DNA of 64,000 nucleotides, taken from positions 124,001-188,000 of the forward strand of contig CACVBU010000137.1 in assembly GCA_902728285.1 (NCBI GenBank), given 5' to 3'. Below, in pieces: positions 18,661 through 63,389 of this stretch (position 1 is the first letter of the stretch; each line of letters starts with the position of its first letter). Below the pieces are notes generated by a model. That model did not search any database, had not been told where the DNA came from, and saw nothing but the letters and a program-made list of their open reading frames with translations. The position numbers and the translations under genes were made by a program. This DNA is from Clytia hemisphaerica (taxonomy: Eukaryota > Cnidaria > Hydrozoa > Leptothecata > Clytiidae).

Positions 18661-18664
18661 TAAA

Positions 18665-20569: not shown

Positions 20570-21184
20570 TTTACCTGGATTTACGTTGCTGACCCTTGAC
20601 TTGCTTATTGGACTACTCTACCTGGACTTAACTCTGGTTAATTCGTTGGATTGGATTTATACGTTGCTGACCCCTTGACTTGCTTCTTGGACTACTCTAC
20701 CTGGACTTAACTCTGGTTATTTCGTTGGATTGGATTTATACGTTGCTGACCCCTTGACTTGCTTCTTGGACTACTCTACCTGGACTTAACTCTGGTTATT
20801 TCGTTGGATTGGATTTATATGTTGCTGACCCTTGACTTGCTTCTTGGACTACTCTACCTGGACTTAACTCTGGTTAATTTGTGGATTGGATTTATACGTT
20901 GCTGACCCCTTGACTTGCTTCTTGGACTACTCTACCTGGACTTAACTCTGGTTAATTCGTTGGATTGGATTTACACGTTGCTGACCCCTTGACTTGCTTC
21001 TTGGACTACTCTACCTGGACTACTTAACTCTGGTTAATTTGTGGATTGGATTTATACGTTGCTGACCCCTTGACTTGCTTCTTGGACTACTCTACCTGGA
21101 CTTAACTCTGGTTAATACGTTGGATTGGATTTATACGTTGCTGACCCCTTGACTTGCTTCTTGGACTACTCTACCTGGACTTAA
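20570..21184 (+). repeat. ~79-bp minisatellite, about 8 copies, abutting the KDZ gene start
   Basis: Unit: 'ttggattggatttatacgtt', 'gctgaccccttgacttgctt', 'cttggactactctacctgga', 'cttaactctggttaattcg'. The last copy is cut at 'ctggactta', 24 bp before the proposed start codon. Reading frames stay open through part of it, so transcription through the array is possible. Confidence 0.95.
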
Positions 21185-21207
21185 ACATAAAAAATCTAAA
21201 GCATGAA

Positions 21208-24200
21208 ATGCAGTCATTAATGGACCATGCATATTGTAAAACCGACACTCAAATTTTGGAACCTGATGCTGCTGCTGCCAATGGCCCGGTAAGATGGACT
21301 AAAAGAGGTTATGGTCAGTGCAGTAATTGTAACAATAGTTACAAAAATAGTAAGAAACCAAAATATTGCAGCTGTGGCTTTGAGCTTGGTGGTAGCTATG
21401 CAAAAAAATTGGACACTCCATCATCCAAAGCAAACAATAAGACTTCCACTGCCATCCCGAAATCAGTTACCATTTATGGAACACCAGAGTCTGGAACCTT
21501 ACGCTCTGTTGCAACAAGCAATAGTCATGACAGGGAATTTTTGTTTATTTCAGGAAACAAAGTATCCTGCCATGCAAAAAAATGTTCAAGACTAAGAGCC
21601 ACATTTCGTGCCTCGAGAGAGAATTTTCATTGTCAGCACTCTTCATATGAAACCACGCCGGAACTGTATCGTATTTTTAGTTTTTCTCTGGAAGAGATAA
21701 CCCTTTTTACACCTGATGAACATAGACAAACAGAAATGAGGAATCTCAATGAGACAGATGTTAATTTTCCAATTTGTTTGAAACTTTCAAATAATAGTTA
21801 TGCTGTTAAAGCTCTAGTTTCTACTGGTGCACCACTTGCTTACACCCACGTTAAAGTCACCTCCTCAAAATCATCCACAGGGCGAGATGTAGTAAAGCTG
21901 AATTGCATGCTTAATAGTTGCCGGAAGAAGGTTGGCAGAACTAAGCAGGTACTTTTAAAAATCCACTTTTTCATAGAATTACAAGATCTGGGAAATGTTC
22001 AGAAAGGATTTTTTTCAATTTTCTTCTTCATGTGTAGACCAGGCCATGTCAATTGAATAATTTGATTATCAAATTTATCAAAATTTATCAAAGTTACAGT
22101 AAGCAATGCGATGACCCACGGTATGGGCCGAGAATTTTCAGGCCAAATTTTTTATTATAATTCACATAAAAAAGCTCGAACATGGATGAACCGAAACTGG
22201 CCCAAGCTTTCGGGTCGTGCTAGGGCCGCGCATGGGCCAATTTAGGAAAACAAAAACTTTTAAAACAGCTTGTCTCCATTTTTCAAATTATTGTGTCTTT
22301 CTACCTATCAGGGTAAACTTTTAATACAGCTTGTCTCCATTTTTCAAATTATTATGTCTTTCTACCTAACAGGGTCAACGAAAGAAGTTCTGTGTTCACT
22401 TACATTTAGTTGCACTTGCCAGGAAGTTGAAAGAAGGAATAATTGATCAATTAAGCTATGCTAAAGTTAATCCCACTAAGGACTCAAATCTAACTGAAAA
22501 AACACCTAAATCAGAATTGGCTGAGATCTCAACAGCTGTAACCAATACCATATTGATTCAGAAATCAAGAAAAATTCCATTGGATATTCCACCAACGGTC
22601 CTAGCAGAAAGCCTTAAACTGGATGAAACAATTGAAGTTTATGTCCCTGAAGAAACTGATTGTTCACTCTGTGGAAGCGCCTTAACAGATCCAATGAATC
22701 AAAAGGGTATGGAACATGGATACCTGATAACAGAGGTTGTCTCATTCAAAAAGATTAAGATAAAGATCAAAAAGTGTAAAAATTCAGATTGTAATGCTAC
22801 AGTTGTTCTATTTCCATATAACAAAGGTAAGAAAGTGTTTTATATGTTGTTTCTATTTCATATTTGTCTAAAACCTAAAAAAGCAAATCATCTTGAAAAT
22901 TAAAATTTAGAATAATTTGAAAACAAAAATTATTTGTACTTAGATTTTATTTGTTCGTTAGTTTAAACTACCGTATTACTTTGAATAAGTGTCTGGGGCG
23001 TTTATTTAATTTTTTCGATTTTAGGAGGAGCGTTTATTAAATTATTTGAGTCTAACGTGTAATATTTAGAACAAATGTAGTCTTTATTTAAGTTATATAT
23101 ATCAGGATTTTTAGTGCTAATTTCTTTAGTTCATCGACTAAAATTGCATCGAAAACTGCTCTGGTTTATATTAAATGACTAAATTCCTTTTCGATCCCAA
23201 TCAACACTTGTATTTGCGTTTATTTGAGGGGGCGTTTATTAAATAAATTTTCTTTTAGGAGGGGCGTTTAAAAAAAGGGGGCTTTACTCAAAGTAATACG
23301 GTATACTCTTTCGTAACATTCTTTAAAGATAATGCTTTTTTTTCAAAGGACTTTTCAATATCTCCAACAAAGTTTTGTTAAGTCTAAGCATAATGGTGGA
23401 ATGGCGTGAATTTTTGAAAGATGGTACACCAGTCACAAACTTCATCACAAGAAAGCTAAAAGGCCTTCAATTGAAATTACCTGTGGTAAAGAGATACTTT
23501 TTTTGAAACTAGTTTTCTTGTTAAAGCTACCTTCAAATCAGCTAACATGGATCATTTGAGAGTAAGACTTTTTGCAAAGAAGATCCACAAAATTATGAGT
23601 AAATTTGCCATTTAATCAATTTTTATTGTTTTATAAATATATCCAAAGTGTCATTAAATTATTAGATGAAAAGATTCAGAGTTGAGAGGTGATATGTTTT
23701 ACTCCAATGATTCATGTTTGCAGATTTGACTGTATGATATTACTTTGATAGTAGGAATTGGCTATACTTGCTTTCTTTCTAAAGTATTTATCTCATTTTT
23801 GGAGGTTAAAATCGCAAGTGTAGATATGTAGGATTATATATAATGTTTAAAATAGATCAAATAAAGAATTTTCATCAAAGGTTTGAACTACTAATCAAAT
23901 GAGACATTTTTGACAACTTTCTGCTCACCAAAATTTGTTTGCTTGATTTTTTCACAATAAATTGAAATTTCTATTTATCTAGGCATCACGCTTGAAAGCA
24001 TCAGAATTTGACTATCTTATCAAAACCATTTATAATGGATACTATGCATTTGAGGCAATGACAGAGAGAAATTTGGTTGATGCCGTTTGTGGGATATGTG
24101 GGATTGCAGGAAAATTGTACTTCGGAGATGGCAATGAGAAGAATTGCACCTCAATAAAGGAGGTAGCTATGTCACACTTTTTAATGTTAAGTTTGAAATT

Positions 24201-26158
24201 AAATCACCTTCTAATTCTTGTGTTTTGAAGTTATTTAAATAGTTGATAAGGGTCGTAATGTTCAAATTGTGAATAGTCTACCAAACTTTGTACAGATTTC
24301 ACCCACCATATAAGTAGATTCAATAAAGAAGGGGTGCCAAAAATTTTGTGGCCCTAGTGACGTCATAGCAACAATTTTTGCATTTTCCAAGCTAAGTTTT
24401 CAACCCCTCAGAAAAATGCGAAAGTCAAAGTCGCTAAAACCCAAAATCACTTTTACCATTCGAAAGCTTTCAAAGAACGATATAGAACACATTTAAACAG
24501 ATATGGTCGATTTCCTAACGTAACTCATGTAAAGCCATCACTTTCTGCTTGGAATTTGACGTCAATTGACCTAAAGTAACATCTTTGAAGTCAAATTGCT
24601 CTACTATTTACAATTTGAACAATTCAACGCTTATCGACTCTACTAAAAAGGATAACACTGTTGAAAACACTTCTCTTTTTTTGTTTAAGGTTAATCTAGA
24701 TGATAACTTAGAATCAATACATAGTTTGACATCAACCGATTATCAGACAAATATGATGGATGTATTGACTTCTCACCTTTTGGAAAAGGGGGCATATTTA
24801 AAACATGTACCTAGTCTTTCTTTGAATCTCTCAGACATTCCTCCACTTATTTCCCCATTAATGAGATCGCATGAGATAAACACGGAAACTGAAAAAAGAA
24901 GTACATACCTAGATGATACAGATGAGGTTGAAGGTATTTTGTTTGAAGGAATTTGTATTCTAAGCATAATTAAAAGAGAATGAGGAGAGAGGACGATTTT
25001 GCTTGACGTTTTGAATGAAAACCTACAAACTATTTTTGAATGGCATATTGCAAGAAGTTATATAGGAAAAATACCAAAAGATTTAATTTTGGGGAGAACT
25101 TATTTTGGCGAGTGAACAAAATATTTAATTTTGGCGGGAACTAGTTTTGGGGAATTTTCGCAAATTTTGTCTAAATTCACCGAATTCCCAAAAATTTGTT
25201 CCTGCCAAAAAGAGTTCCGTTAAGGTAAGTTTCTATTTTTAGGAGATGCAATGATGCTTTCAAAGATTTTAAGAGACAAAAAAACCACAATTGATTCTAT
25301 TGAAACAATGAGTGCCAATGAGCTTAAAGATTTGGCCAAATCATGCAATATCAAAACATCAAAGAATGGGTCAAAAAAATCACAGGTTAACACTTTAATT
25401 CATTTCTGCAGATATGGTAAACTGCCCTGGCTGATGATTTTTATCAAGATAAAAATAAGAGGTAGGGCAAAAATAAAATAAGAGTGAGGGTATTTTTTCG
25501 TCAGAAAACTCTTGCTTACCGTGCCCCTTTTTTGAATGCGTTCTTGTATTTTTACAGTACATATGAAATAGTTTTAGCCAATCAGATTGCTCATATTTTT
25601 CATAATAATAAATAACAATAATATCAATTAAAAGCCAAGATTTTATTAAAGAATGCACAAAAGTTTTCGTAAGTTTCTCTCACACTATAAAGTGTAAAAG
25701 AATTTTTTATCATAAAAATTACTGACAACAAAATGGAAATTCAAAAGTCTTGTGATCAAAATAATGTGATACCAAGTTCAATTTTAGCAAATTTTCTCTT
25801 CCCTTAAAAATGTAACAAACTAGCATAGCAAATTTTACAGGTTCATTTAATCCAATTTTCTTTTGGATTCCTGAAGAAATAAATAAAACATTGACTATTG
25901 TATTTGTAAACTGTAAATTTGATGAAAATAACTTAACTTTTATTTAAAGGCTATGTTGAAGCTTAACTTAAAACAACTCTATGCAACAATTCTAGTCGGA
26001 ACATCTGCTTGTCATCAATTTGTCAAGTCTCCTGGTCATACTGGTGGATTCTATCACCTTGTTTGTCCTCACGGAGTATGTATATCTACATTAAACTTAA
26101 GAGCAGATTCACCTAAGAATCAGCATAACTTTCCAGCCGTTGGTGCTAGAGAGCTGAA

Positions 26159-26242
<84 letters not shown>

Positions 26243-27942
26243 TGTGTGATCCACCCAAGATGTGTGACCTTATCTCAAAATTTCAGTAGGATTTGAAGAC
26301 TTTATATTGAGCTCTTCTGATTCTTAGGTGCATCTGCTCTTAAAATTTTGATACATTTATTTGAAAATGTTAAAAATTTTGCCACGCCCACTTATATTTC
26401 AGGCAATCTGTAGTTTATATTGGAGAACAACCATTCAAAATTCTACTCCGTAGGGGTTTTTCGTTGATTTTGGTTTGGTTTTTAAATGAACTTTTTTGGG
26501 TCAGGATCATAGGTGGCACCTATGTATTTTTATCTTTGTTATCCACTTTTCAAAAACAAAGGAATTTTTCAACCATTATAGATTGATCAAAACAAATATT
26601 TTCATGAAATGCTATAAGATGTGGGCACTAGACAACCTAATTGCATTTTTTATTCAAAAAATGTTTTACAAATGTTTTTATTTAAAATAAAATAGATTTT
26701 GAATGTTTATAAGTTACATAGCAACTGGCAGTGACAGCAAAATAAAGGAAATCAAATGAAAATCAAGGCCTGTCGGGTTTATGTCGATAACATCCTAAAT
26801 TGCTCCTAACTTGTATTCATTGTTTACTTGTTGAAGAATAAGAATGGAAACTGAAAAAAAGATAATAATGGTGGTTTCACGCAAGAAAATATGACGGGAT
26901 CAATTTTCTTTACTTTTTTTATTTCTAGACTACTGTTGCTTCAAAATTCATGATATTAACAGAGTCTGTTCGAGATGCTGCAGATCTGTATTTAAGTTTA
27001 AAGTTTCCACCGGTGATGTTTGTATGTGATACGCCTTGCACTCTGGTCCAGCACATCAATAACAGATCTCCTGAGCATGCTGAACATTTTTGGGGAGAGA
27101 ATGATGGTTGCTTTGAGAAACCAAACTTGGAAAATGATCCAGAAAAGGTTAACAAGGATGTCTAATCTTTATTATTCATGATAAGAAAAGAGCCACAGAG
27201 TGCTCAAGAAAAATGGAGCAAAAATAATGTATTTGAAATAATAACTTAACTTGAAATTGATAGGCAGTATTTCATGCTATGTAATCGTCAGGCAATATGG
27301 TTGCGGTTGTTTTATTTAGTCTGCCAAGTCTGCCATCATGAATTTCAAATAGAACTTGAACTTTCCTTCAAACACTACAGGGAAACCATTTACAGCTTAG
27401 AAATTTGGATAGCTTCAATAAGATGGATTATCAAATCAACAATCATCAACAAAAGTTAAAATTAAAATTTAATAAAACTAAATTCATAAATTTTAATCAA
27501 TTCTATCTTAATTTTCTAGATGATGAATATTCCAATAGTTGTTCCACCTGAATTCCAAGATGAAGATGAGGAAACAAAAGAGATAGCTCTTGATAAACCT
27601 TTTTGTCATCCATTGACTCAGAGCAGCAGGCGTTTCATATGCGGTGACCGTTTTCATACAAAAACAAATCCACATAAGTCTCAACTTTGTGAATTCCACA
27701 ACATCGATTTGTGTCTCCAAAGCACTTGCATAAAAACAAGCTACCCAGAAAGTTTAAATAACAAGAAAAACAATAAAAGAAATCGCTCAGCTTGCACCCA
27801 AAACCTTGCACATCATATTTATTACAATTACCTTATGGACTATTATGATAATCTTGAAATTGTACAAGAACAGAAGGCAGCTTTATCTATTTATGAAAAA
27901 GAAGTAACACGTGATGAATTGTTGCGATTTGTTTTTAATTGA
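21208..27942 (+). CDS. KDZ-transposase-derived protein, HMGXB3-like
   Basis: Nine exons join in phase: 21208-21948, 22373-22826, 23349-23485, 23983-24162, 24690-24933, 25243-25385, 25950-26075, 26929-27147, 27520-27942 (888 aa). Domains in order: an N-terminal Cys cluster (KRGYGQCSNCNNSY, then CSCGFELGG); a second one (CSLCGSALT, CKNSDC); the segment GLFNISNKVLL...YNGYYAFEAMTERN with CGICG; a SAP-like helix pair (SANELKDLAKSCNIK); and the KDZ core GHTGGFYHLVCPHG, VCDTPCTLVQHINNRSPEH, FWGENDGCF, DRFH and LCEFHNIDLC. KDZ proteins are a DNA-transposase family, domesticated in animals as HMGXB3. Whether this copy is domesticated or mobile is open: it has many introns and no visible TIRs. Catalytic acids were not assigned. 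The start is the first ATG after the minisatellite; an upstream exon is possible. An alternative donor at 27904 would fuse it to the next gene. Confidence 0.82.
22971..23301. mobile_element. 331-bp TIR MITE, TA target duplication, in KDZ intron 2
   Basis: CCGTATTACTTTGAATAAGT at the left and ...TACTCAAAGTAATACGG at the right are flanked by TA. The interior has several 'ggggcgtttattaaa' blocks. Confidence 0.85.
26160..26248. repeat. (GT)n microsatellite in KDZ intron
   Basis: About 44 GT dinucleotides with single interruptions. Confidence 0.98.
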
Positions 27943-28219
27943 CAAATTCCTGGAAAAACAATTTTTGAACTAATACTATCAATATGTCATCTAATAATCT
28001 TGTAACATAATAACTTTAACTTTAACTGTAACATTAACTTCTTTTGTTGATATATTTGATATATTGTGTTTAAAAAGTTTCATTGGGAACTTGACCTAAT
28101 GACGTTTGAGGGTGTCTTATGTTTTTCATCATCAAGTTATTTCTTTACAGATAAAATTTAATTGGCTTTTTCCTCTGCTCATATGGTATACTTTATGGTA
28201 CATGTTTTCGTTTTTTCAG

Positions 28220-31200
28220 AACAAAATAAAAATAATCAAAATGATAAATGAATATGTTATTGAAAACCAGAATACGTTCTATAAACCATTGGAAAAAAAG
28301 AAGAAACTTCAACTTTTCTGTGAAGTTGTCATGAAAATCATTGGTTATATTGAAAAGGCAAATGAAAAAGTCAAATCTTGGGTTTTGATGTGTACCTACA
28401 AAAATGAACATCTTGTTGTTGAAACAAAGTGAGTGAGATTTTCCACATTTTTTCCTTTATACTTTATTGACCCCCTTTTTGATTTATGTATAACACAATT
28501 ATTTTAATCAAGTCAGTGATTCTACAAAGTTAGTAATTAAATGTAGGAGTTTTTTATGCATTTTTGCATATAGGTTTTCACTGCCTTTTTATTGCTTTTA
28601 GTTTTGAATAAGATGAGTTTTAGTATCCTAAACTTTCATAATAAATAACTGAAATAGACCAATACTAGATAACACTTCCAGTAGCTCTAATTTGTTTTCC
28701 TTTTTTATTTTACTTTAATCTTCAGCTGGTATGTCCTTTTCCCTCATTATAGAAAAACATTTTAACAAAAATGATTATTTGTATATATGCTTCATTTTTT
28801 AGGACAATCATATTGGATTTTGATGTTTTTACTGCTAGTCCATTGGTTTTTGAGAAACGACTTACCTCTGCTGTCGGTTATTCGGTGTCTGTAGGATCTG
28901 GAGTACAATCCAAAGATATCAAGGACTATAAGTTCTTTCTTCAAAGCCAATACACAGAACCTATACCATATACGCTGATAGAAAAAGTTGGTTTTATTGG
29001 AAAAGGGACTTGGTTTTTAAACGAAAAAGTAAGTTATTAAGTTATTCTTTCCATCTCGAACGATTTTTAGGTTAAAATTAGCATTATTTTTATTCATAAC
29101 ATAAGTCAAATGTAATAGATATTTTACTCGCATCCTAATACCCATTTTTTGACCAAACCACGTTCCCAGCGACTTCTAACTGCTCTAAATCGACTCGTTC
29201 TATTTTTCAACTCCTCGCTACTGTATTAAAAATAATCTTTATCTGGAATAAGGAGATCACTTGGTGTGAGCAAACAAGTAACATTTTGAAACAGAAGATT
29301 TTTCATTTAAAAGAACTTAAATTTCCTTCTGGTACAGAGAATGTTGGAAATTTCTTTTCTTTAGTTAGGCAATTACTTTTTTATTTTCTGGTTTACAGAT
29401 TCGCCACATTTTTTTTTTCAAAATTAAAATAAAATAAAACTGAAATTCCCAAAACTTTATTTATTTTTGACCTTCGGACCCTGTCTGATCTGCCATGAAA
29501 AGGAATTTTTTTAGGAAACTTCATTTTATAAGAGCATAAAAGGAGATGAAAGGGTACGGCCTTCTCTTTTTCCCATTGATTTTCTTGTGTGTATAAACAT
29601 TCTTCAAAACATTCTAAATTTTCTCCAACATTAAAGTTTCAAAATGACAATTTTTTTTTTCCATCCTCCCGTCCAACTCCAAATTTCTGTAAACCAGAAG
29701 AAAAAAAATACTTGCCTAGTGTGCATCCTCCTACAGTGAAGCCCAGAAAAGAAATTTATTAAGACATAATAAGAATCCTCCAAATGTTTAGGGAAAACAA
29801 AAAAGAGTATGCTTATTATCAACGACTTTACATCTACTGCAGATTTCTTACTAATAGTTTTATTTTGTTATTTCTATTTAGACAGACTTGGTCAAGGCAG
29901 GATTCGAAAAATCAGATGAAAAATTTATTCTTGGAGACCAAAATAAATTCAAGCACTTGTGTCTAGACGTAGATAGTTCCTTGTTTAAAAAGGAAAATTG
30001 TATCGAAATCAATAAGAAGTAAGAAAAATTGTTATGGTCTTAAAGAGGTCATGAATAAAATTTAATTATTGCTGTTCCCAGGAAGAAAAATTTAGGGCTT
30101 TTAATAGCTTTTTGAATATGGGGCACAGCTAGAATGGGCCAAACCAGATTAGACATGTAAAAAATCTAAAATTCTGCCAAACATATACTTCATTTTTGAA
30201 TTTCCTTAGGATATACGAGCTGTTAGAAGGATTTGGAACAAACCAATGGAATGCAGAATTTTGCTTTGCTTTCATTTTATCAAGATTGCTACTGGCTGGT
30301 TCTCCTGCCTCATTGGATTCAGGTATTTGAATCATATTTGAAAAGTAGACCTACCTGGAGGACCTGTAAATTAACCCTTGTCCGTCTGTCTCTTACCAGC
30401 TTTTCTCGAGATTGGCTCATTAGTTTTTTCTGACTTTTGACACAAGATGCAAAATTGTAATGCCCACAAAATGTGACGGACCCTGATTTAAAAAAAAAAA
30501 TATTTTCCGTCCAAAATGTCAGAAAAACTGGCTTTTAGGCTGATTCATTAATTGCAACAATGGATCAAATTTTGGAAATTAAGTCTCGATTGTTGATAAA
30601 CTATTTCTGATATTTTTGTCAAATTTTGATGACCTTTTGTTGTTATTTTTTTCAGTCCCTATACTTCTGTTCTATATTTATCATTAGGTGGGTCCAAAAA
30701 ATGCATTGTGCTTATTTATCAGATTTTTAAGTCCTTCAAAAACAATGTTGAACTTCCAGTTTATACAGGCTCTAATGCTTTTTTCAATCCTTCTAGGCGA
30801 GAGCAATGTTCTTCTCCTTCATTCTGGTTCCGAGGTAAGGAACGTTGGAAAGACATTGCTTCAGAAGCATATAACCTTTGGACAAGGAGCAAGTCTCCAA
30901 CACAAATTAATTGTATCTGGTGGGAGTGGATCTTCTTCTGGGACAAGCAGGTATAATGCTTTTAATGACATACATTGAGCAAAAACAGTCTATAGAGTGC
31001 TCAAGAAAAGGAATTAACTATGAATTGCTACAGTGTTTCATGCTATGTAATTGTTGGGCAATTCGGTTGTGTATTTTCTTGCAATAAAAACTAAAAAACA
31101 ACAGCAACCGAATTGCCTGATTTTTAAATTGAAGATTTATTTAATTTTGGATGGCAAAACAAAATAAGTTTTTGAAACTCTAAATTTTGAACTCATTTTT

Positions 31201-34200
31201 AAATCTTTATCAAAAAGATGAGATTAATTAGAACTTTGGATTGCTAGACACTCAGTCCTTAATGGTATATATAAACCGTATTTCATTTTAGTCGTTCCCT
31301 TCAAGAAATTTGCAACTCGTCATCAATGGTTCTGTGTGTAAACGAAACAAAGAATGGAGACAGTCAATCGGAAATGCTTATCCATTTGCACGAGAGATTT
31401 TTCCAAGGCACCAAAACTGGAGGTCTGGAATGTTCGGATTGTTCAGGGATCGTCCTGTCATCCAATTATAAAGAACCGCAAAGGTAAAGAAAGAAATTGG
31501 CAAAAGTTTGATTACACCCTAAAAGTCAGATTTGAAAAGAAAAAGAATAAATAAATTAAATATTGTATACCTTTAGGGAGATATATAAGTTCGCAAGTTC
31601 TTCTGTTAATTTGTGAAAACTTTATAGACCTTTGGAAATATTATAATCCTCACAAAAATTAAGTTTTTTAGACATTTGTAATTTTAAGGGTTTTTAGACA
31701 TAGTTTTCTTTTGTTTTCAAAAAAATAAGCCCACTTCTCACAAAATTTAATCCTTGCGAAAGTTTACATTTCCCGTCCTTGCGAAAGTAAGTCCAACAAA
31801 AATTTAATTTACCATGAAAAAATTGAATTTGCCATGAAAAGATTGCCTCGCGAAAATAACTTACCAAAAAATTATTCCCCTTAAAGCCATAATAACAATA
31901 TGTTATCGAGGTCTGGATTGCTGTTTCAAAAAATGTTTTAAACCCATTATCAAAAAATTGTTCAACTAAACAATAGAATATCCTCTTTCTAAAATTACAT
32001 TTTCACGACCCGAAAGTTTGCAATGTTTTGACTTTTTAGAGATGAATAAGAATTAGAATGAATTGTCTGTGTTTTTAATACATAAGTGCGAGTAATATTT
32101 TGTTTTTGCAAAATAAGCAAAGAGCCTCATGGATGTATAAATTGGCTTTAAGGTAGTAATTTTAGATCACCATTTTGTATTTTTTAGATTGCAAGGTCGG
32201 GTGCTGTCATTGGAATTTGTCAAAGGAGATTATGACCGCCAGAAGCTTGATGAATTATATGAAGCTACAAATAGACATAAGGTTAGTAGTGAAAAAGTTT
32301 TTTCTTTGACAAGATAATGTCAATATCACACCATGGTGAGTAAAAAAATAGACATCAGTTTCTCTATTTGCCCGAGTTTCAATCCCATCGTTCATTACGT
32401 TAATTTCTTATGTACATTAATTACACTTCATGACAAAGAAAATGTAACAACTTTAATGACTTTGAAATCAAGACGAAAGGGATTATGGGATTGAAAGTCG
32501 GACACATTTGAAAAGTAATAATTATGACGTTTGCATAACAGAGCGCTATTATATCATTTAGAACATTGATTTGATTGGTATCAATATATCAGCCATAATT
32601 TGATTGCCTCAATTTACAATTTATTTACAGATTGAATTCGAAAAAAAGGTTCTGTAAACTGAGGTTGTAAAAATAATTATATCTTTAAAAATCATGCTTT
32701 AGGGTTTCTTGACTTCATGGGTGATTCACCACTGTTCGACCTGGCTAGACTCATTCAAGGAAGAAGAAAGGAAAATCTCCGAAAAATTAAAGCAACAGTT
32801 AAAGTGTTGCGAAGATGATAGATGGCATGATGCTGTAGCATTGGTGCTATTTACAAAATTTATTGTAAGTTCTTAATTTTTTATACAGGAAGTCGATAGT
32901 AAAATACCAGACATGTGGAGTGAAAGAATTTTAAAGAATTTTTGACCCTTATTCTTGGAAAGGGCATTTTTTTTAATTTCAACATGGAGACCACCTATTT
33001 TCTGGCTCTTTTTCGGGGCCGTCCATATAGTATGTACGCAAAAACTTTCCAAAATTTTGATACTGCCTCCACCCCCTTGTACGCAGAGAACAATAGAAAT
33101 GATGTCATTTAAACAAAAGATGTATGCTTTCACTAAACCCCCTCTCCCTTCACTGTGTGTGTACTACTGGCTGTTTCAAAAAAAAGTGTACAAGTTTGAA
33201 TTGAGATTGTGAGAAAACTATTAGAAAGGAGAAATGCCAACTTAAATTTTGAGCTATCATACTTTAAATTTGCTTCACGTATTCAAAAGTTATGAAGAAA
33301 ATTAGAAAAAAATCTCGTTCAAAAAATGTACTTTTTTGAGAAAAAAGAGGGGATCAATATTCAAGCTCACAAAACACTAAAAAAAGCTTTATTTACGATA
33401 TTTTTTCGTAACCTAAAGATTTGAGACCTTTTCAAATGTTTTGATTGCCAAAAGAATACAAAATAATCGGGAAAATGGGAAGGAATTTCACAATCATCAC
33501 AAATACTCTAACTTTTTCTGACCAAAATTTTGAGTTTTCCAGGATAAGTGGGAATATTAGGAAATTTATGTACCAAAACTTTCTCCTAAAAACCCAAAAG
33601 CAAACCAGAAAGATTCGTTTCCAGCTAACATCAAGAAAATGTTCCAATATTATTCAAATTCACACACATGCATTTTGTCTAATAATAAAATTATAAAATT
33701 TGTCAAACAAAGTTCCAAATCATCTTAAAAAATCAATATTTTGGAGATCTTTCAACAGCAAAGCAAGTTTAGCTATCGCTTGAGAACTACCATTTCAGTT
33801 CGGCAAATTGCATAGTTCCGCAATGTTGTAAAATTTCGCAGCACTGTGTTGTCCAAAGGCCAGAGCAGCGAAATTAGCAGGGTAAAGCTGCTGAAAAGTC
33901 GCAAAGTTTTGCCCTGTAGCTGGCCTCAAACTGGGTTCACAAGTCCATCCAATCAAAATGCACCGAAGGAGAATCACAAAATTTGATTGCCTTTTCAGTG
34001 ACGCATCGTATTCCCAAAAATAATCCGTATCTGAGAACTATTGAAAATATTTGAGCCATTGAAAAGATTTCGTTCTTTATGATACATGTATGATACACCA
34101 CTTTTTTTATCACAATTTAGTTTTGCTCTTCAATCGGTATCAATTTTTCTTTGGTGGATGAGGTCCGAAAATTGAAACAAAACTATGAACGGACAGAGAG

Positions 34201-37200
34201 ATCCTTCTGGCTCACTCTTGAGACGAAGCTCAGAGAATTTGTCAACAATTGTGACCGTGAAAAGGTAATGCAATAAATGTGATTGATAGTTTGATGAATA
34301 CTTCATGTTAGGTTTTTTTCATATTTCTTGTTTAGAATGAATCCATAGATGTAATATTTAGTTCCATGTATCGTTTTAGTTACTATCTTGGTTAAAGCCA
34401 AACGCTTCCATTGGCATCAAGGATAAAATACCGGCTTTTTGTATAACCCAAGCCAAGTTTGATGAAATGCTACCGAAATCATCGGATGTAAGTCAAATTC
34501 TGTAATTTACCTACACCTTTTTAGGGAGAAATGAGCTATAATCTTGGGGTTTCGAATCCCCTGTCTTATTCTTCTGTGCTCAATTATAGGGGGTGGAATA
34601 AGCAAGGGGTGGGCACTCCGAAAGAAAAATCATAAAATGGGTGGATCATTATTGAGTGCTTTTGCCGTGATTTTCCCTAAAAAAACCTAGGAAAATCAAG
34701 GTTTTGGCACTTTTCCGGAAAATATATCTCTCTCATTATAAAATGCTATGGGGTTGTTTTGTACCAAAAATTGCAAAGTGACCCCCCCCCCCCACACACA
34801 CACACAGAAGAGTATGTTGTAGAGATGAATACCTGAAAAATTGATTATTGGTTTCATTTCTATTTTTAACATTAAAAGCTGAAAAAAGGTCTGAGCTTTT
34901 CCTTTTAATTTAGATGTTTTCAATTTCAGGAATTAAAAAGAGAACTTGGCAGTTTGTCTGAGCAAGCTTACAATCAATCAATCAAATTTAATGATAAAAA
35001 TGATAAAGATGATGCACATGAAGAAAATGGCAATGACAATGATCCACAAACAACTCAAATCAAATCAAATTCTATAAGAAGTAAATAAAAACTCTAAAGT
35101 TTTTAATTTGTTGTAGTAAAGTTTATTATTGCACCATTTTTAAAATAGACCTTAGTCCTCTTTTGTGCTAAATTGTAGGGGATGAGGTAGGTCTCAAGGA
35201 AAAAAAAAAACAATAAGGGGGTCACAAATAAAGTGCTGTTGGCACGACTATCTGAAAATACTTGGATAATGAAGGTTTTTGGCACTTCGTAGCACAAAAA
35301 TCATAAAATAGGTGTCGTTATTAAGTGAAGTTGGGGGTTAAAATATTGCCAAAATATGCTGAGTACGAGTTTTCTTGGCTGAGGGTTACATTTGGGAGTA
35401 TTATGTTTATTGTATATCACTTTTTATATTAGGTCACAAGATTCCTAAACATCGAGTGTCAGAAGATCTGGTTAATTGGTTGGATAAAGTTCGAGGTATA
35501 TATCAACAATGAAGCTTTTTGTCTTTACCTATCAACCTCAACTCTTTTGATTTCCATGTGTTTCAATTTTTTAAATGCTTAAATTAAAAGGGTTGTGTGA
35601 AAATGCTTAATCGACCATCAAAGGGTTGTTTTTTCCTTTATATCCCGAAAATTAGGTACAATAACTCTTTATGACTTAATGTCCAATTTGACGCAAAATA
35701 GGCAAAACCTTTGAGTACAATGTTGAAAATTTGAAAAATTGTAATTTTTAACAAATTTTTCTAGAAAATCCAAATGAATATTTAAGTCATGAAATTCCAA
35801 GAAGAGAAATCATTACTGACGATGAAATTGATTTAGAGTCATTCCAATACGACATGAATCAAACCTTACAGGGTATGGTCTGGTTTTTTTAATTAAAGTT
35901 AAGGTATGTCATAAGGTTAAAAAATTAATTTTTTTTCAAAAAAAATTTTTTCCGGCCGATCTAGAAAAGAATGCTTCAAACTTTCTTTTTGTCTAAAAAC
36001 GAAATTAAAATCTTAAATAGTTGCTGAGATATTAGCGTTTTAAATTTTAGAACAGATTTGAACTTATAATTGGCTATTTGCATAAGACAAAGAAGAATAT
36101 TATAATTTCTTATTCAATATACTAAATAAGATTTTAACGAACACCATCATTTAGGAAATTTCATGGGCTTTCAGAAAATATATACTCTTTTTCGGAAGTT
36201 ATTAACAAAAGAAGAGAAGGTGTCAATTAACCTTATGACATACCTTAAGTAGAATATATTAATGACCTCTGATTTGCTGGTTTGTAAATACTATTTTGTG
36301 TTTGACTGTATAGGGTTGGAAAAAGCAGGGGTTTGGTACTACAGGGATAATATAAATATTGGGGTCATAATAAAATGCTATCAGGCATATTATCTGAAAA
36401 TAATGTAGGGACAGTGTATGTATGAGGTGTGGATCTGAATAAATGAGAATTGTAATTATATTGATTGTTCATTATGTATTATCATAGTTACTCATCAAAA
36501 TCCGACGCCACTCGAAAATATTGAAGAACAATATCGATGTTTGCCGCCGGTGGTAATTGAAAATTCGAAATTGAAAAGCCCAAAATCGAAAATTGAATAT
36601 TTGAAGGTAGTGATATTATTTATAGTATTGATATTGACAAAAATATGACAGAAAGGTCAGGCGTCAACTCAATCTTTCTCAGATAAAGTCGAAACAAAAG
36701 TCTTGAAAAACGAATTTATGGCAAGGGACGTACTAAAATTCATAGGTTTGCCTCAAACCGCCAATTTTAATTCCAAAATTAAAATATGTATTAGCCACAC
36801 TTAATCTTATGGTGAACAAAACAATTATTAGATATTTATAAGATAATTTTTGTAGATTGTAGATTTTTCAGAGATCTTTTTCTCTTTTTACTTTTCTCGT
36901 CGACATTTTGCTCATTACATTTATTACAGGGAAGTAAAGAGACCTGGGATTCGATTGTATCAAAGAAAAGAAAATTAAACCTCCAATTGGATGTTCAGAA
37001 AAGTTGGGATTGTACACCAAGTAAGACAAATATTCTTGTAAAATATTCTTTATAAAATTCAAAAGGATAATTTATTCTTTTTCTTTATTACGTGCTTATC
37101 GACCAGGGAAAATCCATTTCGTTCATCGGTTAAAAAGAATTGTTCTAGGGTTTTTCGAAAATTTCGATCCTGAATGATATAGACAGGAACCCGTCTTGTA

Positions 37201-40200
37201 TTTTGAATCTGTTGTATACTAGAGGGTTCAGAGCTCAACATTAAAATAGCTCAACATTTTTTGTCGTTTTTTGCCTCGTTTGCCAAGAAAGAAGTTTAAT
37301 ATTGCAAAATTTTGTTCCGAAAGTTATAGTTCACCGCTGACTCAATTACATGTTTTGATTTGTAGATTTCCTTCTCTGGAGGAAGATTAAAAAATTTAAA
37401 CTTTGGACTGTAACTCCTTTTACAAAATCTTTCTGGAGCCGAAAGCTCCATAATGAAACATGGGAACTTTTTATGTAATCTTTTTCGTCTCTGTATTAGG
37501 CATCAAGGTTCCTGTTAACCCAATGGATGTTGCAAAGAAGGCAGGAGATTGTTCAAGTAAGCCAGATTTCCGATATTTTTGAATTTTCTTTAACTGTATT
37601 TGTTATTATTATAGTCTCTTTAACTTGTACTTCTATTACTCGAACGCCCCCTTAAAGCCACTTTATACATACACGAGGCTCTTTGTTTATTATGCAAAAA
37701 CAAAATATTACTTTCACTACTGTATTAAAGACGCAGTCAATTCATTCCAATCCTTATTTATCTCAAAACATTGCAAACTTTCGGGTCTTTAAGTCAGAAA
37801 ATCCGTTGAGAGATTTGAAGATAAAACTTTTGTTGTGAGTTTCTTGGCATTTTTAACAAAGATCTGTCATTATAAGTTTTTTTTGAATTTATTTTATGAA
37901 GAGTAATTAGCAATTTAATTACAAAAAATGACTTTATGAATCTTAAATAGACGTTGATAAATTATTATAGAACCTCTTTTTCAAAAAATGCTTGGTTTTA
38001 ATGGGTAATTATTCTTTTTGTTTCGAATCTTTTTTAAACCTTCTGCAAAGGATTGAACTATCTAAAAAATTTCGGAAAAATTTTCTAAATTGATGTATCT
38101 AAATTTATGACCCTTTTTTAGATTCAGGAATATTTGGCCTAACAGAAAATGTATAACATGTCATGATTTTGCTGCGTAAATCAGTCAGAAAAACACATTT
38201 TATACATAGCAAATATGAAAAATTCACTATGGTCATAGTCTGGAGATCCATACTCTCTATTCAAACTTACACCACATAAGCAAAAGTCCCATCAGAAGCT
38301 ACTCATTGAGAGTATGGTATTTTTGACCCAGTTTGAATTTGTTTACATTTGCTTTGAATTTCGTGCCAAAAAAGCCGTTGATAAGATTGGCCAATCGCGT
38401 TCGAAAAAAGCCAAAATCCAAGTTAAACAAGGTTGGAATTTTCAAAACCCATATTGAAAAAAGCCAAAATCCAAAAATACAATGACAGAGTTTTGAGAAA
38501 AAGGGATCTTAAACGAGGTTTTTATTTTTGTGAACAGTCACGCGCTAGCCTAGTCTCGATGGCTCTCGACGAAAATTAGCGACTTGTCAGGGTACTTATC
38601 AATTACTTTAAGGGCAGAAATAACTTTCGCGAATTTGCTCAAAATTGCGAAAGTTTCTTCCTTTAAAGTATATGAAATTATAATTGTAATTTCTAAGCCT
38701 TGTTTTGTTTAACTTTAAGCTGTTTCCATGAATGTTGGTGGTGAATCTACGAAAACTACTGAAAAGAAAAAAAGAAAAACAGGTATAATCATATCATTTT
38801 GAGAAGAGAAATCTTACTGAAGAAGATGCTAAAGCATGAAATCGTTATCATGTCTTTTTAATATACTTACGTGCGTGAGATATGGAAATAATTAATAGCT
38901 TTTGAAAATTTACTTCGAGGTTTTATTTAGGATTCATGATAGGTGTCTTTCGGAAGAGTTTAATTTTTCACCTATTATCCCTAACAGGTGTTTTCAAAAA
39001 ATCTTTTTCAAGGTTCTGTCAACCAAATGGTTGGTTTTCCAGATGGAGTGTTCGGTGCCAAGGGTAAGTTAAGTCTTATTTTCACGTAGCTTATTTCAGG
39101 AGGGATTTAACTTTTTATAAATATGAAATTCTATTTTCATCAAACGTATCAACAATAAGTGAATACATTCAATTTGAGTATTCAATTAAGATTTTTTCTT
39201 TTCTTCTTTACATTTTCAGGAATGTCACCGATAACATGTAAGTTCGTTATTCATACTGCTTTTCAGACATTGATTGAAAATTGATTCAAAAGATATTTTA
39301 GAAAACTCCCACTTTCAGCAGTACAATTCTTGTGGGGATTTTCGCTGCTCGTCAAAATTTGGCCCCTTCGGTATTTTGACCCTATTATTTAAAATCTGCT
39401 TGTTTTTTCTGGTTTTATTAGACTTTCCCCCAGAGAAAAATCCGTTCATAGGGATGGAGGATGAATTGTCTAGAGAAGATTGTCCAGGGAGTGAAAAATG
39501 GAAACTTCCAGGGGTACCTTGAACAGCCAATTGCCACTTTTCTCCTATTTTAATTTGTTTTGAGAATGTTATTTCAGCTTGTTGTTTATCGAGTTTTTAT
39601 TTGAGTACTTTTTCCCTCCTTAGCGACACCATTGGATGAGAATTATGGCACAAAACACAAGAGACAGACGGACTATCCACTCAGAAAAAGGAATGGGGAC
39701 CATTCAAAAAGTACGTACGCTCGAAAATGGCAAATTTTTGATCCTCCCCTCCCCCTTGTACGCTTTCGTAACTTCAGATCAATTTTATTAGAAAGAATAC
39801 ACGCTTTTTCTTTTATAAGAATAACTTCTATAAGAAAATCAGGGTGAGATTTCGGGTTTAAAACAATAGGCCTATTGTTTAGAACAATAGAAAAATAAGA
39901 ATAATGCTTACCCTCAACCAAAGTACACTATTCTTATAAAAAAAAAGCGTGTAGTCTTATTAAATATCAAGGGGTAATTTTTAAAAGTTCTTGGAAAATT
40001 AATTTGATAGGTAATTGTAAATTGAAAGGTAGACGAACTCCCGATACCCCCATTGAATTGATCAATTAAGGTAGACGAATTTAATCTGGCTATCCACTTG
40101 GAAAAAAATAAATATCCTTTAGATTTTCCAGCTTTAACCCCCCCCCCTGGAAAAAATCGTCCACGCCCTGTATGGACACGAAGGAAAAGCTCATTGCTTG

Positions 40201-40885
40201 AAATAAAAATAAAGTATCAAAATCTAAATATCTAATTGTTAACCTCCGTTTTAGATCTTAACAGCCAACAGAAAAGATTTTGCCCATGCATGAATAAAGT
40301 AAGCACTGCAATTTTCGAACTTTGCTTCAAATTTCTTTATTTTTAGTGGGTATCTTAAAAATTATTGAGAAAAAGTGGTTCGCTGAAGATGATATTGATT
40401 CTCTAACCCCTTTTTTCGTTTTAGGATAAACCTTTACAGCCATCGATATCGTGTGATAAGGTAGGTTTCTGGTGATACAAGATCCGTTTTGTTCTTTGTT
40501 TTACCATTTTATTTAGCATCTTGGTTTTCAAAATAGTCTTACACCCTTTAACCTCAAACTTCTTTATTCCTTAGTGTGGATCGCCTTATCATCTTGAATG
40601 CACCGGATTGGTAGCTGTGCCAGACAACACGCAAACTTGGTAAGTAAGATTTAATATTTTGAAAAATTATACTGGATTATTTGAACAGAAAAATATTTTA
40701 AAAGAGAACAAATGAACAAATAAATATTAGGAAGCACTGTTGCAAATTCAAGTTATTTTATCATTTTAAAAACCTATTTTTTATGATTCTTTTTCTTGAG
40801 CACTGTTTGACTTGTTATAATTTTTACTTGATGAACCGAACAATGCTCCTTTATTTTTAGGTTGTGTAAAGAATGTAGGAAGTAA
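28220..40885 (+). CDS. Unrecognised multi-exon protein with C-terminal PHD finger
   Basis: Exons (all phase-compatible): 28220/28241-28428, 28803-29028, 29882-30018, 30210-30322, 30688-30950, 31292-31422, 32188-32281, 32703-32864, 34121-34264, 34380-34487, 34930-35080, 35433-35495, 35765-35872, 36488-36606, 36930-37020, 37500-37556, 38720-38782, 39013-39063, 39220-39237, 39624-39710, 40255-40298, 40425-40460, 40575-40639, 40861-40885. About 847 aa from the ATG at 28241. The first half looks globular (TIILDFDVFTASPLVFEKRL; SWVIHHCSTWLDSFKEEERK); the middle is acidic and disordered; several tiny exons encode KKRK-type basic patches. The end is a PHD finger, C-P-C...CDKCGSPYHLEC...WLCKEC, a likely histone-tail reader. 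The donor at 31422 is weak and uncertain. The exon acceptor at 28220 is in phase with a possible KDZ donor, so this may be the 3' half of one ~1730-aa protein. Function unknown. Confidence 0.68.
29368..29716. mobile_element. 349-bp TIR MITE, TA duplication, in PHD-gene intron
   Basis: GGCAATTACTTTTTTATTTT..., continuing 'ctggtttacag', is mirrored by 'ctgtaaaccagaag...tacttgcc', flanked by TA. A sister copy with better-preserved TIRs lies in NOP56 intron 1 at 54455. Confidence 0.82.
35899..36248. mobile_element. ~350-bp TIR MITE in PHD-gene intron
   Basis: TTAAGGTATGTCATAAGGTT at the left is mirrored exactly by AACCTTATGACATACCTTAA at the right. A TA duplication within the ends is likely. Confidence 0.85.
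37900..38150 (+). repeat. Dispersed repeat R1, copy b, in PHD-gene intron
   Basis: 'tttaatgggtaattattctt', 'tctgcaaaggattgaact' and 'ggcctaacagaaaatgtat' match copies a (16.3 kb) and c (48 kb). It is diverged at the site where copy a carries the 826-bp insertion. Confidence 0.7.
39798..39953. mobile_element. ~156-bp TIR element in PHD-gene intron
   Basis: TACACGCTTTTTCTTTTATA at the left and its near complement ending ...AAAAAAGCGTGTA at the right. The left ~95 bp is repeated at 5410-5500 (ataagaataacttctataag, aaacaataggcctatt). Confidence 0.75.
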
Positions 40886-41060
40886 GCTTTTTGGATATCT
40901 TTTGCAATTCATAATATGATGATTTTCATTGACGATGAAGTTCTCAAGTTTGACGTATTTTTGGTGTTGGCAGAAGAAGATAAAAGAGCAACAAGAAAAA
41001 GGACGTAACCTGTGATGATATTCTTTTGATACTTTTATTGGTAGAAAACAATGCAATGTT

Positions 41061-41462
41061 TTCACTTTATATGTAAATACACTACTAATTTATTAACCCA
41101 AAAACGATATCATTGATTTATTTAGTATTCACTTTTATATGTAAATACACTACTAATTTATTAACCCAAAAACGATACCATTGATTTATTTAGCTTTCAC
41201 TTTTATATGTAAATACACTACTAATTTATTAACCCAAAAACGATACTATTGATTTATTTAGCTTTCACTTTTATATGTAAATACACTACTAGTTTATTAA
41301 CCCAAAAACGATACCATTGATTTATTTAGCTTTCACTTTTATATGTAAATACACTACTAATTTATTAACCCAAAAACGATACCATTGATTTATTTAGCTT
41401 TCACTTTTATATGTAAATACACTACTAATTTATGAACCCAAAAACTATACCATTGATTTAAA
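41061..41462 (+). repeat. ~68-bp minisatellite, 6 copies, just downstream of the PHD-gene stop
   Basis: Unit: 'ttcacttttatatgtaaata', 'cactactaatttattaaccc', 'aaaaacgataccattgattt', 'atttagct'. It begins 176 bp after the stop and may lie in the 3' UTR. Confidence 0.95.
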
Positions 41463-44250
41463 GTCTGTCCCAAAAAGCCTATGGACAGTTTACTTTTGTT
41501 AGTATTATGTTATCATCTTTTTAACATTATATAACCTTTGAATATACACGTACAAATGATTTAGGCCATGATGGCCAGACCCCTCGAAACGTTTCAATTT
41601 TTTTCAAAATATCGGTGAACAAACTTTGACCATTGATTTTACTTAGTCAATTTGAGGGTGCTGGTTCCAAATCTCAATGTTACCAAGCTTGAAACCCACA
41701 GTTTTTGCACAATTTGCGTATTTTTTTAAGGTTTTCATGATTTTTGGGGGATCTTCAAAATCAAAAAAGACCTATAGCACGTGATTTTGCTCTTCAAACT
41801 AAGCAGAAAAATGTATTACATCGAAGTTTCAACTTTTCTTGATCAAAAGTTATGGGCGATTTGGTGGTCAAAAAAATGATGAAAAACAGGGAATTTCCCC
41901 AAAATCCGCATAATTTATGCAAATAATCTTACAACAAAATAGCCCATATCTCACCGACATTTTTTATTTATTTTTTTTGAATGTTTAAAGAGATGAGTGT
42001 TTACTTTTGCATACTTTTAGGATGGACTTATGCTTTCATTTTATCTGTATATCTTACTATACTAAATGAGTTTATGAAAAATGTCTGTAACGCTAGCCCA
42101 TTAACATATGTTAAGGTTTCTAAAATTTGAACGCCGCGGCTGGAAAACCTATCCACCTTCGATACAAAAAGTCTCGCGCTAAGTTTGACAAGCGTAGAAA
42201 ACTCGGATTAGAGAAGACTCTACACTGCTATTTGTAAACGAAAAAAGTTCTGACGTCAATTTCATGAAAAAGTACTGCGACGTCACAAAGTTTCAAATAA
42301 AAAGATGTGGCATTTTTGTTGCACGATTTCGAATTATCTTATATCAACACACGCAACAAGCCAACATTGTTGTTCGATGATTAAACTTCGTCTAACATTA
42401 TTTAAAAAGGTTTCAATGTTGGTTGCATTGCATATGCGCCGGTCTTAAGCTGTCCGCATGTGAAGCCAACAAATGGGTAAACCTTCAGTGCTCAATCGCA
42501 AAGCGCGAGCCTCTCCTTCACAACTAAGGCTTTTTCTTTCCTAGAAGCAACCCTCTCACCACCTCAGACACCTTTGGGGGTCTGCAACGACGGGTACTCT
42601 CGATAATTTTGACAGGGTCACTATGGCATTTCATTGAACACAAACTTCCGTTATCTTAAAAAGACATATCGTCGAGGCTTACAGACACAAAATTTTGACT
42701 AATGTAGAAAGTTTAGAAGTATAATTTTTATTATTGTATTCGGCATTTTAAGCCGAAACAATGTCAGGAATTAACCGACATTATAGTATTTTAAAGGCTT
42801 TTGACGTGCAAGCAAAACCGTTAACCGGCGTTTGCGACGACGGGAACCGTCTAGTATACACTATACTATTTTTTTACAGTGAAAAATTTATGTTTTATTT
42901 CAAGTAAAATGATTTCTTTTTCTTGTTTTTATTTTCCGATACCAGCATGTTGTTCTTAACTTTTTTAACTACTTTTTTTGATCTCGTGCTCCGAAAACAA
43001 TTAAAATGCTAGATCCTATCCATCGGCACGAAATTTAAAAAGTCAAATTTTTGCTTCACTTTTTTTTGCTGGAGAAAGCTTAAAGTTCAAGAAAGTTGCC
43101 TATCTAGCCCTTCGGGCTTTACAGATATCTGTGTTAAAACTTTCTTCCACTTAATTGATAATTATAAGTTGTTATGACGTTTCAAACTGTGAGAAAGATG
43201 CAAAAGACGTGTTGTGTATAAGAAATTTAATGTTGACACAGTGGAGCCAAGACACTCAAGTCCTATTTATGTTAATTTCAGCTCTTCTGGGGGCAGTCTT
43301 AAAAAGATATTTCCAATTGAAAATTTTGTGTCACTATAAGCATTTTTCCTGAATTTCTTGTCTAATTGCGGACAAAGCTAGAACACCAATTGTTTTCTGA
43401 AGCAAAGGAAATACAATGATCGCTCTCCATCGTTTTATGAGTCGTTTATCCAGTGTATAATAAATCTTTGGTGAAATTAGCCTTATTGGGGATGAGACGC
43501 CGAAAGAAATATGATTTCCCCCATTTTATGAATTTTTGCCCTTAAAGTACTGAAAACCTCCATTTTCCTTGTGAGAATCAATAAAACCACACGTAATTAT
43601 GACCCCCTACCCCCATAATGATTTTTCTTCCGGAGTCCACCCACTGGGGTAAGGACAAGGTACAGAGAATCAAACGTTTGGAAGTGCTGTGAATTTTTTC
43701 CCTAAGCGACCTTAGTCCTCATCCAGCGTCCCATAACCTGATAACAGCTGTGGAGTTTTTTTAACGCAACACGCTGAAGCTCTAAAGATCGCTGAAAACT
43801 AACATCTGAGGAAAATGGTCATGTCGCTATGAGAAAATTTCAGTCAACTTTTTGTCGTGCGCCAAAATTATTAAAATTAAAATGGCGCTCCATAAAAATT
43901 GCGTTTTATAGATAGGAATTAAAATTCTAACCCACAATGCTTTGCGACTTGGAGGCTTTCAAAATATTTAAATTTATTTTGTGAAACCTTTGAAGTTTTT
44001 TCTGACCCAAATTTTGTCGGCAATGACACCCTTCCCTGTCCAGATTGCACTCGGGCCCATTCTTCTATACGCGGTCCGAGAATAAACGCGCGACCATATT
44101 CTTCAGATTGTATATTTTCGCCCACGTCTTTAGAGCTTTAGGGTTTAGCGTACTGGGCTAGAAAATACACAATCTGTTATCATCAGGTTAGCGTCCCAAG
44201 CCCCAGTAGCCATATATTGGAGAATTATTTTCTGTAATAAAGAGAACGAA
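41463..44250. other. Intergenic, no gene recognised
   Basis: AT-rich with a GC-richer block at 42100-42620 that has no extended ORF. 43490-43650 resembles repeats near 34500 and 35160 (cccattttatga, aatcataaaat). Confidence 0.4.
43068..43133 (+). repeat. Dispersed hairpin-containing motif, copy 2
   Basis: Same 'gctggagaaagctta', 'cctatctagcccttcgggct' and 'cagatatctgtg' blocks as at 1381-1436, with a 10-bp difference between the first two. Confidence 0.6.
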
Positions 44251-44252
44251 TA

Positions 44253-44462: not shown

Positions 44463-44477
44463 TAACGTGTTATCCCC

Positions 44478-55173: not shown

Positions 55174-55190
55174 TTTTTCAATGCCCTGAA

Positions 55191-63333: not shown

Positions 63334-63389
63334 TCTACAGTTGTTTACATTTGAGTTTAACGCCAATTAGACCCGTTAGAAGCTGTGCT

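Follow-up and report, generated by a model that had tools for sequence, protein, structure and literature searches.

A probable 29-kb cut-and-paste-type DNA transposon with two separate genes, one for a transposase-like protein and one for a recurring companion whose window copy ends in a PHD finger

Many eukaryotic cut-and-paste DNA transposons are regarded as relying on a single transposase. Within the KDZ group, Zisupton and Dileera are described as making 8-bp target-site duplications (TSDs) and Kyakuja 7-bp ones, Zisupton as bearing terminal inverted repeats, and fungal KDZ elements as able to carry TET/JBP genes (PMC12730594); the Zisupton genes reported from Pristionchus have many exons (PMC9297572), and one "likely KDZ transposase" is listed for Hydractinia (PMC9926710). 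In Hydra, operons in which the second gene is trans-spliced have been shown (PMC3273482; PMC7986045). KDZ elements are already known. Among the papers listed by our literature searches, none dealt with a KDZ-type transposase that has a PHD or ATPase-like companion, and none described the pair reported here. This pair lies in a stretch of 64,000 nucleotides (C102:124001-188000, hereafter the window) of a genome that was searched as 417.4 Mb in 951 contigs. Two neighboring forward-strand genes in this window, referred to as gene 1 and gene 2, very probably make up the coding part of a DNA transposon of the cut-and-paste type, 29 kb long, whose two proteins are separate.

The initial annotation of the window had delimited positions 20570 to 41462 and had called the first gene transposase-derived. 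This understated the case, as the transposon around the gene pair has precise ends and 8-bp TSDs, and the span was too small for the unit, which reaches from one terminal repeat to the other (Table 1). Exon borders of both genes were hand-picked at GT-AG sites, so that the GT-AG introns (8/8 in gene 1 and 24/24 in gene 2) are partly a matter of construction, and the borders of the small exons 15-21 of gene 2 were drawn from the window sequence alone. The joined frames contain the terminal stop only, with 63 and 92 stops in the other two frames of gene 1 and 40 and 71 in those of gene 2, and the exons of both genes match copies elsewhere in the genome; both observations support the models independently.

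The imperfect terminal repeats, compared with the right one reverse-complemented, aligned with a score of 12.0, against a maximum of 5.5 in 500 shuffles. With the window included, the left end (103 bp) was found at 32 places, nine of them at 100% identity, and the right end (130 bp) at 25 places. The boundary on the left fell on the same base (CAGTAGTGG) in 18 of the 20 flanks read from among 31 other copies, two of these 18, both on C678, carrying the same flank. A properly oriented right end was located near 15 of the 32 left ends. Among the 14 resulting end pairs outside the window, a perfect 8-bp TSD was present in nine (C419, C941, C899, C112, C312, C113, C397:854, C850 and C356) and a 7/8 match in two more (C239 and C832); in a control of mismatched pairs, 8/8 matches occurred in 0 of 195 and 7/8 matches in 1 of 195. 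Because nine left ends are identical, recent movement is suggested, and the system may still be active or have been so until recently. At C678:316601-317678, two left ends in inverted orientation, separated by about 1 kb, carry the same outer flank, which would fit a derivative of the fold-back kind or an inverted duplication of end and flank together.

The 14 other end pairs span 0.3-8.7 kb, and the 29,088 bp of the window are the sole long pair found. In the C356 copy, gene-1 exons 1, 2, 5 and 6 are 99.1-99.6% identical in DNA sequence, exons 3 and 4 fall in an internal deletion, and the right-hand minisatellite follows the gene-1 exons; the borders are sharp, with GTAAAAGT on either side, and it is on account of this short, sharply bordered copy that the element ends were placed at 18544 and 47631. 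This derivative (C356:67001-77000) sits within a tandem repeat of about 30 bp, adjoining units of which, as judged by eye, hint at an empty site. On C359, an older and damaged copy begins with the left end (92%), followed by gene 1 and then by gene 2, and no right end was found there. The sub-terminal 59-bp and 68-bp arrays have a common 28-bp core in opposite orientation and could serve as multiple transposase binding sites, and the 79-bp array may be the promoter or 5′ leader of gene 1.

The idea that gene 2 is a companion of gene 1, which had been raised together with the proposal to search the genome for further copies of the pair, came out stronger than originally claimed, as this search added 13 loci. 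At least 54 exon matches on 24 contigs were obtained for gene 2 and at least 53 matches for gene 1, both being lower bounds because only the best candidates were scored. Gene 2 lies downstream on the same strand at 12 of the 17 loci that hold the 3′ end of gene 1; 11 of these came from the gene-2 search (C102, C359, C460, C297, C49, C397, C554, C791, C340, C715 and C431) and the twelfth is C513. The addition of C303 and C909 from the gene-2 side brings the pair to 14 loci including the window, with constant order and strand, while two extra gene-2 sites on C297 are unpaired. Some of the pair loci are near-identical (C397, C554 and C431; C297 and C303), so the lineages are fewer than the loci.

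Selection was estimated per exon by the Nei-Gojobori method as the ratio of nonsynonymous to synonymous divergence (dN/dS), the figures covering, for each exon, no more than the 14 pairs that had diverged least, and some saturated pairs yielded no ratio. For gene 2, the clearest pairs gave 0.04 (C715-C612), 0.05 (C49-C612) and 0.08 (window-C359) in exon 6, 0.07 in exon 5 (C49-C715) and 0.07 in exon 2 (C355-C460), with 0.14-0.26 for other exon-2 pairs and 0.1-0.6 for distant, near-saturated ones. Gene 1 gave 0.08-0.2 in exon 8 for pairs with dS above 1 and 0.15-0.27 in exon 9. Very recent pairs, which differ by few changes, had ratios between 0.3 and 1.45 (the highest being C397-C635 in exon 5), values that fit copies decaying after insertion. 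The tested exons of both genes are under purifying selection, and this constraint, together with the occurrence of the pair at 14 loci that include diverged members, points to long co-inheritance. The same evidence bears on a composite origin, with gene 1 belonging to the transposon and gene 2 hitch-hiking or captured without a role in transposition. Such an origin would explain that gene 2 is joined to these ends only in the window (and to the left end alone on C359), that the 14 short end pairs contain no gene-2 match, and that the adjacent right end of the window copy has no matching TSD; set against the diverged pair loci and constrained exons, we consider it unlikely.

Turning to gene 1, its nine exons stand as first described, the GHTGG, CPHG and DRFH motifs noted in it are present, and its sole Pfam family above the cut-off is the CxC4 cysteine cluster, which the Pfam text calls "associated with KDZ transposases" (the full-length scan used a 926-aa draft that equals the final model over the CxC4 stretch). 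Three acidic residues are candidates for a catalytic D/D/E triad: CDTPC is kept in all seven alignment rows covering that stretch, and GDRFH and S..ES.N are invariant in an eight-row alignment of the window and seven copies. These candidate positions, which are conserved among gene-1 copies, lie in motifs that align by eye with ADIMCKL and MHAKGH of KDZ proteins from the same genome, as does TGGFYHLVCPHG with their TGLEVMSCRHQ. Separate Pfam-positive KDZ sequences occur in this genome (110 matches), many with internal stops. In the window, a 61-bp tandem duplication at 22254-22379 closes gene-1 intron 1, so that the acceptor region is doubled.

The CxC4 domain also occurs in HMGXB3, and both genes of the pair are open, have many exons and show purifying selection in the tested exons, features in keeping with domesticated host genes, namely an HMGXB3-like gene beside a chromatin factor, both retained by the host. 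An HMG box is a feature of HMGXB3, whereas none appeared in the Pfam scan of gene 1 (E up to 1). Given also the many dispersed copies, some of them near-identical, the precise ends with TSDs, and the existence on C356 of a TSD-flanked, end-bounded copy with gene-1 sequence, domestication is highly improbable.

Table 1. Coordinates of the proposed element, its repeats and its two genes in the window
Feature	Position	Strand	Remarks
Whole element, 29,088 bp	18544-47631	+	left end CAGTAGTGG, right end CCTTAACCC
Left terminal inverted repeat, imperfect	18544-18603	+	
Right terminal inverted repeat, imperfect	47572-47631	-	
TSD ATTTTTCA left of element	18536-18543	+	same 8 bp beyond solo right end 6427 (-)
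TSD partner (6419-6426) and solo right-end fragment (6427 to ~6659)	6419-6659	-	C102:130427-130556, 100%
Sub-terminal minisatellite, 59-bp unit x 13.8	18663-19476	.	
Sub-terminal minisatellite, 68-bp unit x 29.5	45499-47501	.	
79-bp array x 7.6, immediately upstream of gene 1	20582-21184	.	present in C356 copy too
Gene 1	21208-27942	+	9 exons, 921 aa; probable transposase
Gene 1 exons	21208-21948, 22373-22826, 23349-23485, 23983-24162, 24591-24933, 25243-25385, 25950-26075, 26929-27147, 27520-27942	+	
CxC4 cysteine-cluster domain of gene 1, aa 334-432	22631-23449	+	across intron 2; Pfam PF18717, E 2.9e-8, 34.1 bits, cut-off 26.9
Candidate acidic triad of gene 1	D of CDTPC 27028-27030; D of GDRFH 27646-27648; E of SYPESLN 27748-27750	+	conserved columns; catalysis predicted
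3′ splice-site AG, candidate spliced-leader acceptor	28218-28219	+	21 nt before gene-2 ATG 28241
Gene 2	28220-40885	+	25 exons; 864 codons from acceptor, 857 from ATG 28241
Gene 2 exons 1-13	28220-28428, 28803-29028, 29882-30018, 30210-30322, 30797-30950, 31292-31483, 32188-32281, 32703-32864, 34121-34264, 34380-34487, 34930-35080, 35433-35495, 35765-35872	+	
Gene 2 exons 14-25	36488-36606, 36652-36729, 36930-37020, 37500-37556, 38720-38782, 39013-39063, 39220-39237, 39624-39710, 40255-40298, 40425-40460, 40575-40639, 40861-40885	+	
P-loop-like stretch of gene 2	30797-31483	+	N[IV]GK[ST], hydrophobic strand + N[DE], S[SA]N; recurs in copies read
PHD finger, gene-2 C terminus	40255-40882	+	Pfam PHD E 2.2e-5, 24.8 bits, cut-off 24

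A number of observations weigh against reading the locus as a two-gene transposon. For the ends, a full right end is missing from the vicinity of 17 of the 32 left ends (a fragment is present on C888), two of the 14 other end pairs (C254:2327 and C261:810) lack a TSD, and on C75 the left end is damaged, with ACTTTTTT flanking both sides; no second long copy was found to have both ends, and only in the window is gene 2 seen between them. For the pair, five of the 17 loci with a gene-1 3′ end were without gene 2 in these searches (C421:1570, C113:719, C788, C786 and C558), ten of the 24 gene-2 contigs likewise showed no adjoining gene 1 in them (C355, C866, C621, C161, C421, C612, C611, C360, C635 and C224), C170 has only a gene-1 fragment beside gene 2, and several copies are broken (C359 and C460). 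For gene 1, the part of the initial annotation that made it a KDZ protein did not carry over to profile searches, which it had itself proposed and which gave CxC4 for gene 1 and PHD for gene 2: the Pfam KDZ family (PF18758) was unmatched by the full protein (draft model, E up to 1), by its 3′ part alone (E up to 10), and by all eight rows of that 3′ part (window and seven copies, E up to 5). Alignment with hhalign to KDZ proteins of the same genome scored 16.1, a value equalled by 10 of 60 column shuffles and no higher than the 16.55 of a control with the gene-2 alignment, and the best PDB match of gene 1 had an E-value of 0.078, without meaning. Because the profile comparison was no better than shuffles, the KDZ kinship of gene 1 rests on CxC4, the 8-bp TSD and the layout, and its transposase chemistry is a prediction.

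The window copy adds a further difficulty, as its left flank ATTTTTCA is unlike the flank TGTTTTGA of the adjacent right end. The match is instead to the flank of a solo right end on the opposite strand 12 kb upstream (8/8), and since the TSD partner is this reversed right end, the window copy must have been rearranged. An inversion with one break inside the right array would be the simplest account, and the reversed solo right end is the kind of trace left by an inversion, by a similar rearrangement or by transposition that used reversed ends.

Whether the pair yields one protein or two was addressed by comparing the junction between copies. The initial annotation had entertained a single fused product of about 1,730 aa, spliced from a donor at 27904 to the acceptor at 28220, and had seen no AATAAA between the genes. 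The two phase-compatible sites do exist and gene 2 starts only 277 nt past the gene-1 stop. Contrary to that annotation, an AATAAA is present at 28225. In C359, the closest copy, the donor sequence gaagtaaca is replaced by gaactaaca, with CT in place of GT. Of the 13 copies read, 11 have the gene-1 stop a few codons at most after an RDE..RF-like motif, with an earlier in-frame stop in C359 and an extension of 15 codons in C909. A 3′ splice site was found 0-21 nt before the gene-2 ATG in six of the eight starts read (21 nt in the window, 14 in C909, 15 in C460, 0 in C397, 0 in C715 and 7 in C513); two of these six distances are not multiples of three, and C460 has an in-frame TAA in between. 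Of the other two starts, the one at C297:11799 lacks a clear acceptor, and in C359 the gene-2 ATG itself is lost. Since most copies read keep the gene-1 stop, the donor is lost in C359 and the stretch from acceptor to ATG looks like leader and not coding sequence, the fusion is not supported and is very unlikely even as an alternative product; genes 1 and 2 do not look fused and would give separate proteins.

Under a fixed acceptor rule (a pyrimidine-rich YAG within 21 nt of the ATG, also run at looser and stricter settings), five of the six gene-2 starts passed and C513 failed, the five passes not being independent events because the copies are related. Of all 1890 ATGs in the window, 261 (13.8%) passed, or 126 (6.7%) at the stricter setting, and the gene 1 start failed. 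An operon with a trans-spliced second gene would fit these acceptor data, and a cis-spliced 5′ untranslated region (UTR) is possible. The latter would go with gene 2 having its own promoter and a 5′-UTR intron instead of being a downstream operon gene: a cis-spliced leader also produces a 3′ splice site before the ATG, no spliced-leader RNA was identified, and one C297 copy stands apart in its unclear acceptor. The spacing of about 300 nt in the window leaves little room for a promoter, however, and two host genes in the window carry an acceptor 12-17 nt before the ATG, as in a trans-splicing host, at the looser setting only: a NAXE-like gene (YjeF_N domain, presumed start 13021, forward strand) and a NOP56-like gene (NOP5NT and Nop domains, 54892-55200, reverse strand). 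These two acceptors are a hint of wider spliced-leader use in the genome, and a separate promoter for gene 2, if somewhat doubtful, is a realistic possibility.

The second protein was expected some 300 bp on, with about 24 exons and a C-terminal PHD finger, and the gene-2 model agrees closely with this. The PHD finger is its sole Pfam family above the cut-off, and the nearest solved chain is the TAF3 PHD (E 2.8e-7). PHD fingers that read H3K4me3, histone H3 trimethylated at lysine 4, have a cage tryptophan and C4HC3 spacing; in gene 2 a proline aligns to the tryptophan of the TAF3 DDWYH stretch and the first cysteines are spaced as CxC, not CxxC, so that methyl-lysine reading is not to be taken for granted. 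When the PHD family was searched for across the genome, the best 150 of 2201 candidates were scored and gave 150 matches, and the PHD of the window was not among the matches listed; a PHD split over exons escapes both exon-wise and genome searches. Many of the PHD matches (e.g., C18:1779685 and C585:627388) have equal scores and fall in open frames that are about 1,000-1,160 aa long, and our guess is that these are probably retroelement-encoded PHD fingers. An apparent finger fragment in L038 was found upon inspection not to be a PHD.

Upstream of the finger, gene 2 has a Walker-A-like motif, GTNNIGKT in C49 and C715 and a looser NVGKT or NIGKS in other copies including the window, and together with the neighboring motifs this recalls, tentatively, a P-loop ATPase of the SF3/AAA+ sort. 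Searches with this stretch gave no significant match, with three P-loop families in Pfam, each hit by one row out of 10 (E 0.031, 0.14 and 0.2), one unnamed family in PHROGs (E 0.024, 1 of 10 rows), and an irrelevant interleukin-33 as the sole PDB match (E 1.3). Beyond the PHD finger, single-sequence and family searches of Pfam, PHROGs and PDB found nothing significant in gene 2. No viral relatives came up in two scans of viral contigs, for which stretches of 209 aa (gene 2) and 255 aa (gene 1) served as queries, and none of seven open frames scanned for a third gene in 40886-45499 rose above the cut-off. Elsewhere in the window, arrays of a unit of about 188 bp occupy 58120-59179 and 63386-64000, the second seemingly the reverse complement of the first by eye.

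Taken together, the gene-1 protein would act as the transposase, with its cysteine clusters binding the ends and sub-terminal arrays and its conserved D/D/E residues cutting and joining DNA with an 8-bp stagger. Its long-standing partner from gene 2, probably a nucleoside triphosphatase-like protein with a chromatin-binding finger, may aid end engagement or target choice. Both genes would probably be carried on one operon transcript started from the gene-1 promoter, and splicing at the acceptor right in front of the gene-2 ATG would supply gene 2 with a separate 5′ end, for which spliced-leader trans-splicing would be likeliest if the host is a hydrozoan-type animal. The many short copies would be deletion derivatives mobilized in trans. 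A more specific and rather speculative version, which we think improbable as a whole, is a Tn7-like division of labor in a transposon of a eukaryote, probably an animal. Here a KDZ-like transposase would work with a separate protein, a P-loop ATPase whose chromatin-reading PHD finger selects targets, and one spliced-leader operon within the transposon would express both. More generally, a long-lived pair whose second protein bears a chromatin finger and ATPase-like motifs would allow a test of whether some eukaryotic transposons use a dedicated partner for target choice, and the acceptor before gene 2 suggests that a transposon can exploit host operon machinery to make two proteins.

Compared with described systems, the junction of the two genes resembles the Hydra RFC140-flp operon, in which the intergenic distance is short (less than 417 nt in that report) and the second gene is preceded by a trans-splice acceptor (PMC3273482), although the Hydra case is a host operon and not a transposon, and a leader was not seen for gene 2. 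Tn7-type elements, which combine a transposase with an ATPase regulator and a target selector, are bacterial and have shown no sequence relation to the element here, and any likeness would be in the division of labor only, should gene 2 be an ATPase with a chromatin finger. Harbinger and Nuwa elements share a transposase with a separate DNA-binding partner, as stated for Nuwa (PMC12730594), but Pfam scans of neither protein here found Myb/SANT, and the TSD is 8 rather than 3 bp. With Zisupton and Dileera, as described, the element here has in common an 8-bp TSD, terminal inverted repeats (in Zisupton), long many-exon transposase genes, a CxC cluster named for KDZ and a D/D/E-like layout; unlike these, it fails the Pfam KDZ profile, is 29 kb long with inverted sub-terminal minisatellites, and has a second conserved PHD/P-loop-like protein. 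Fungal KDZ elements with TET/JBP genes are likewise KDZ-type transposons with a chromatin-related second gene, but the fungal partner is described as a dioxygenase passed among transposon lineages (PMC12730594), whereas the partner here is PHD/P-loop-like and stays beside gene 1 in diverged copies.

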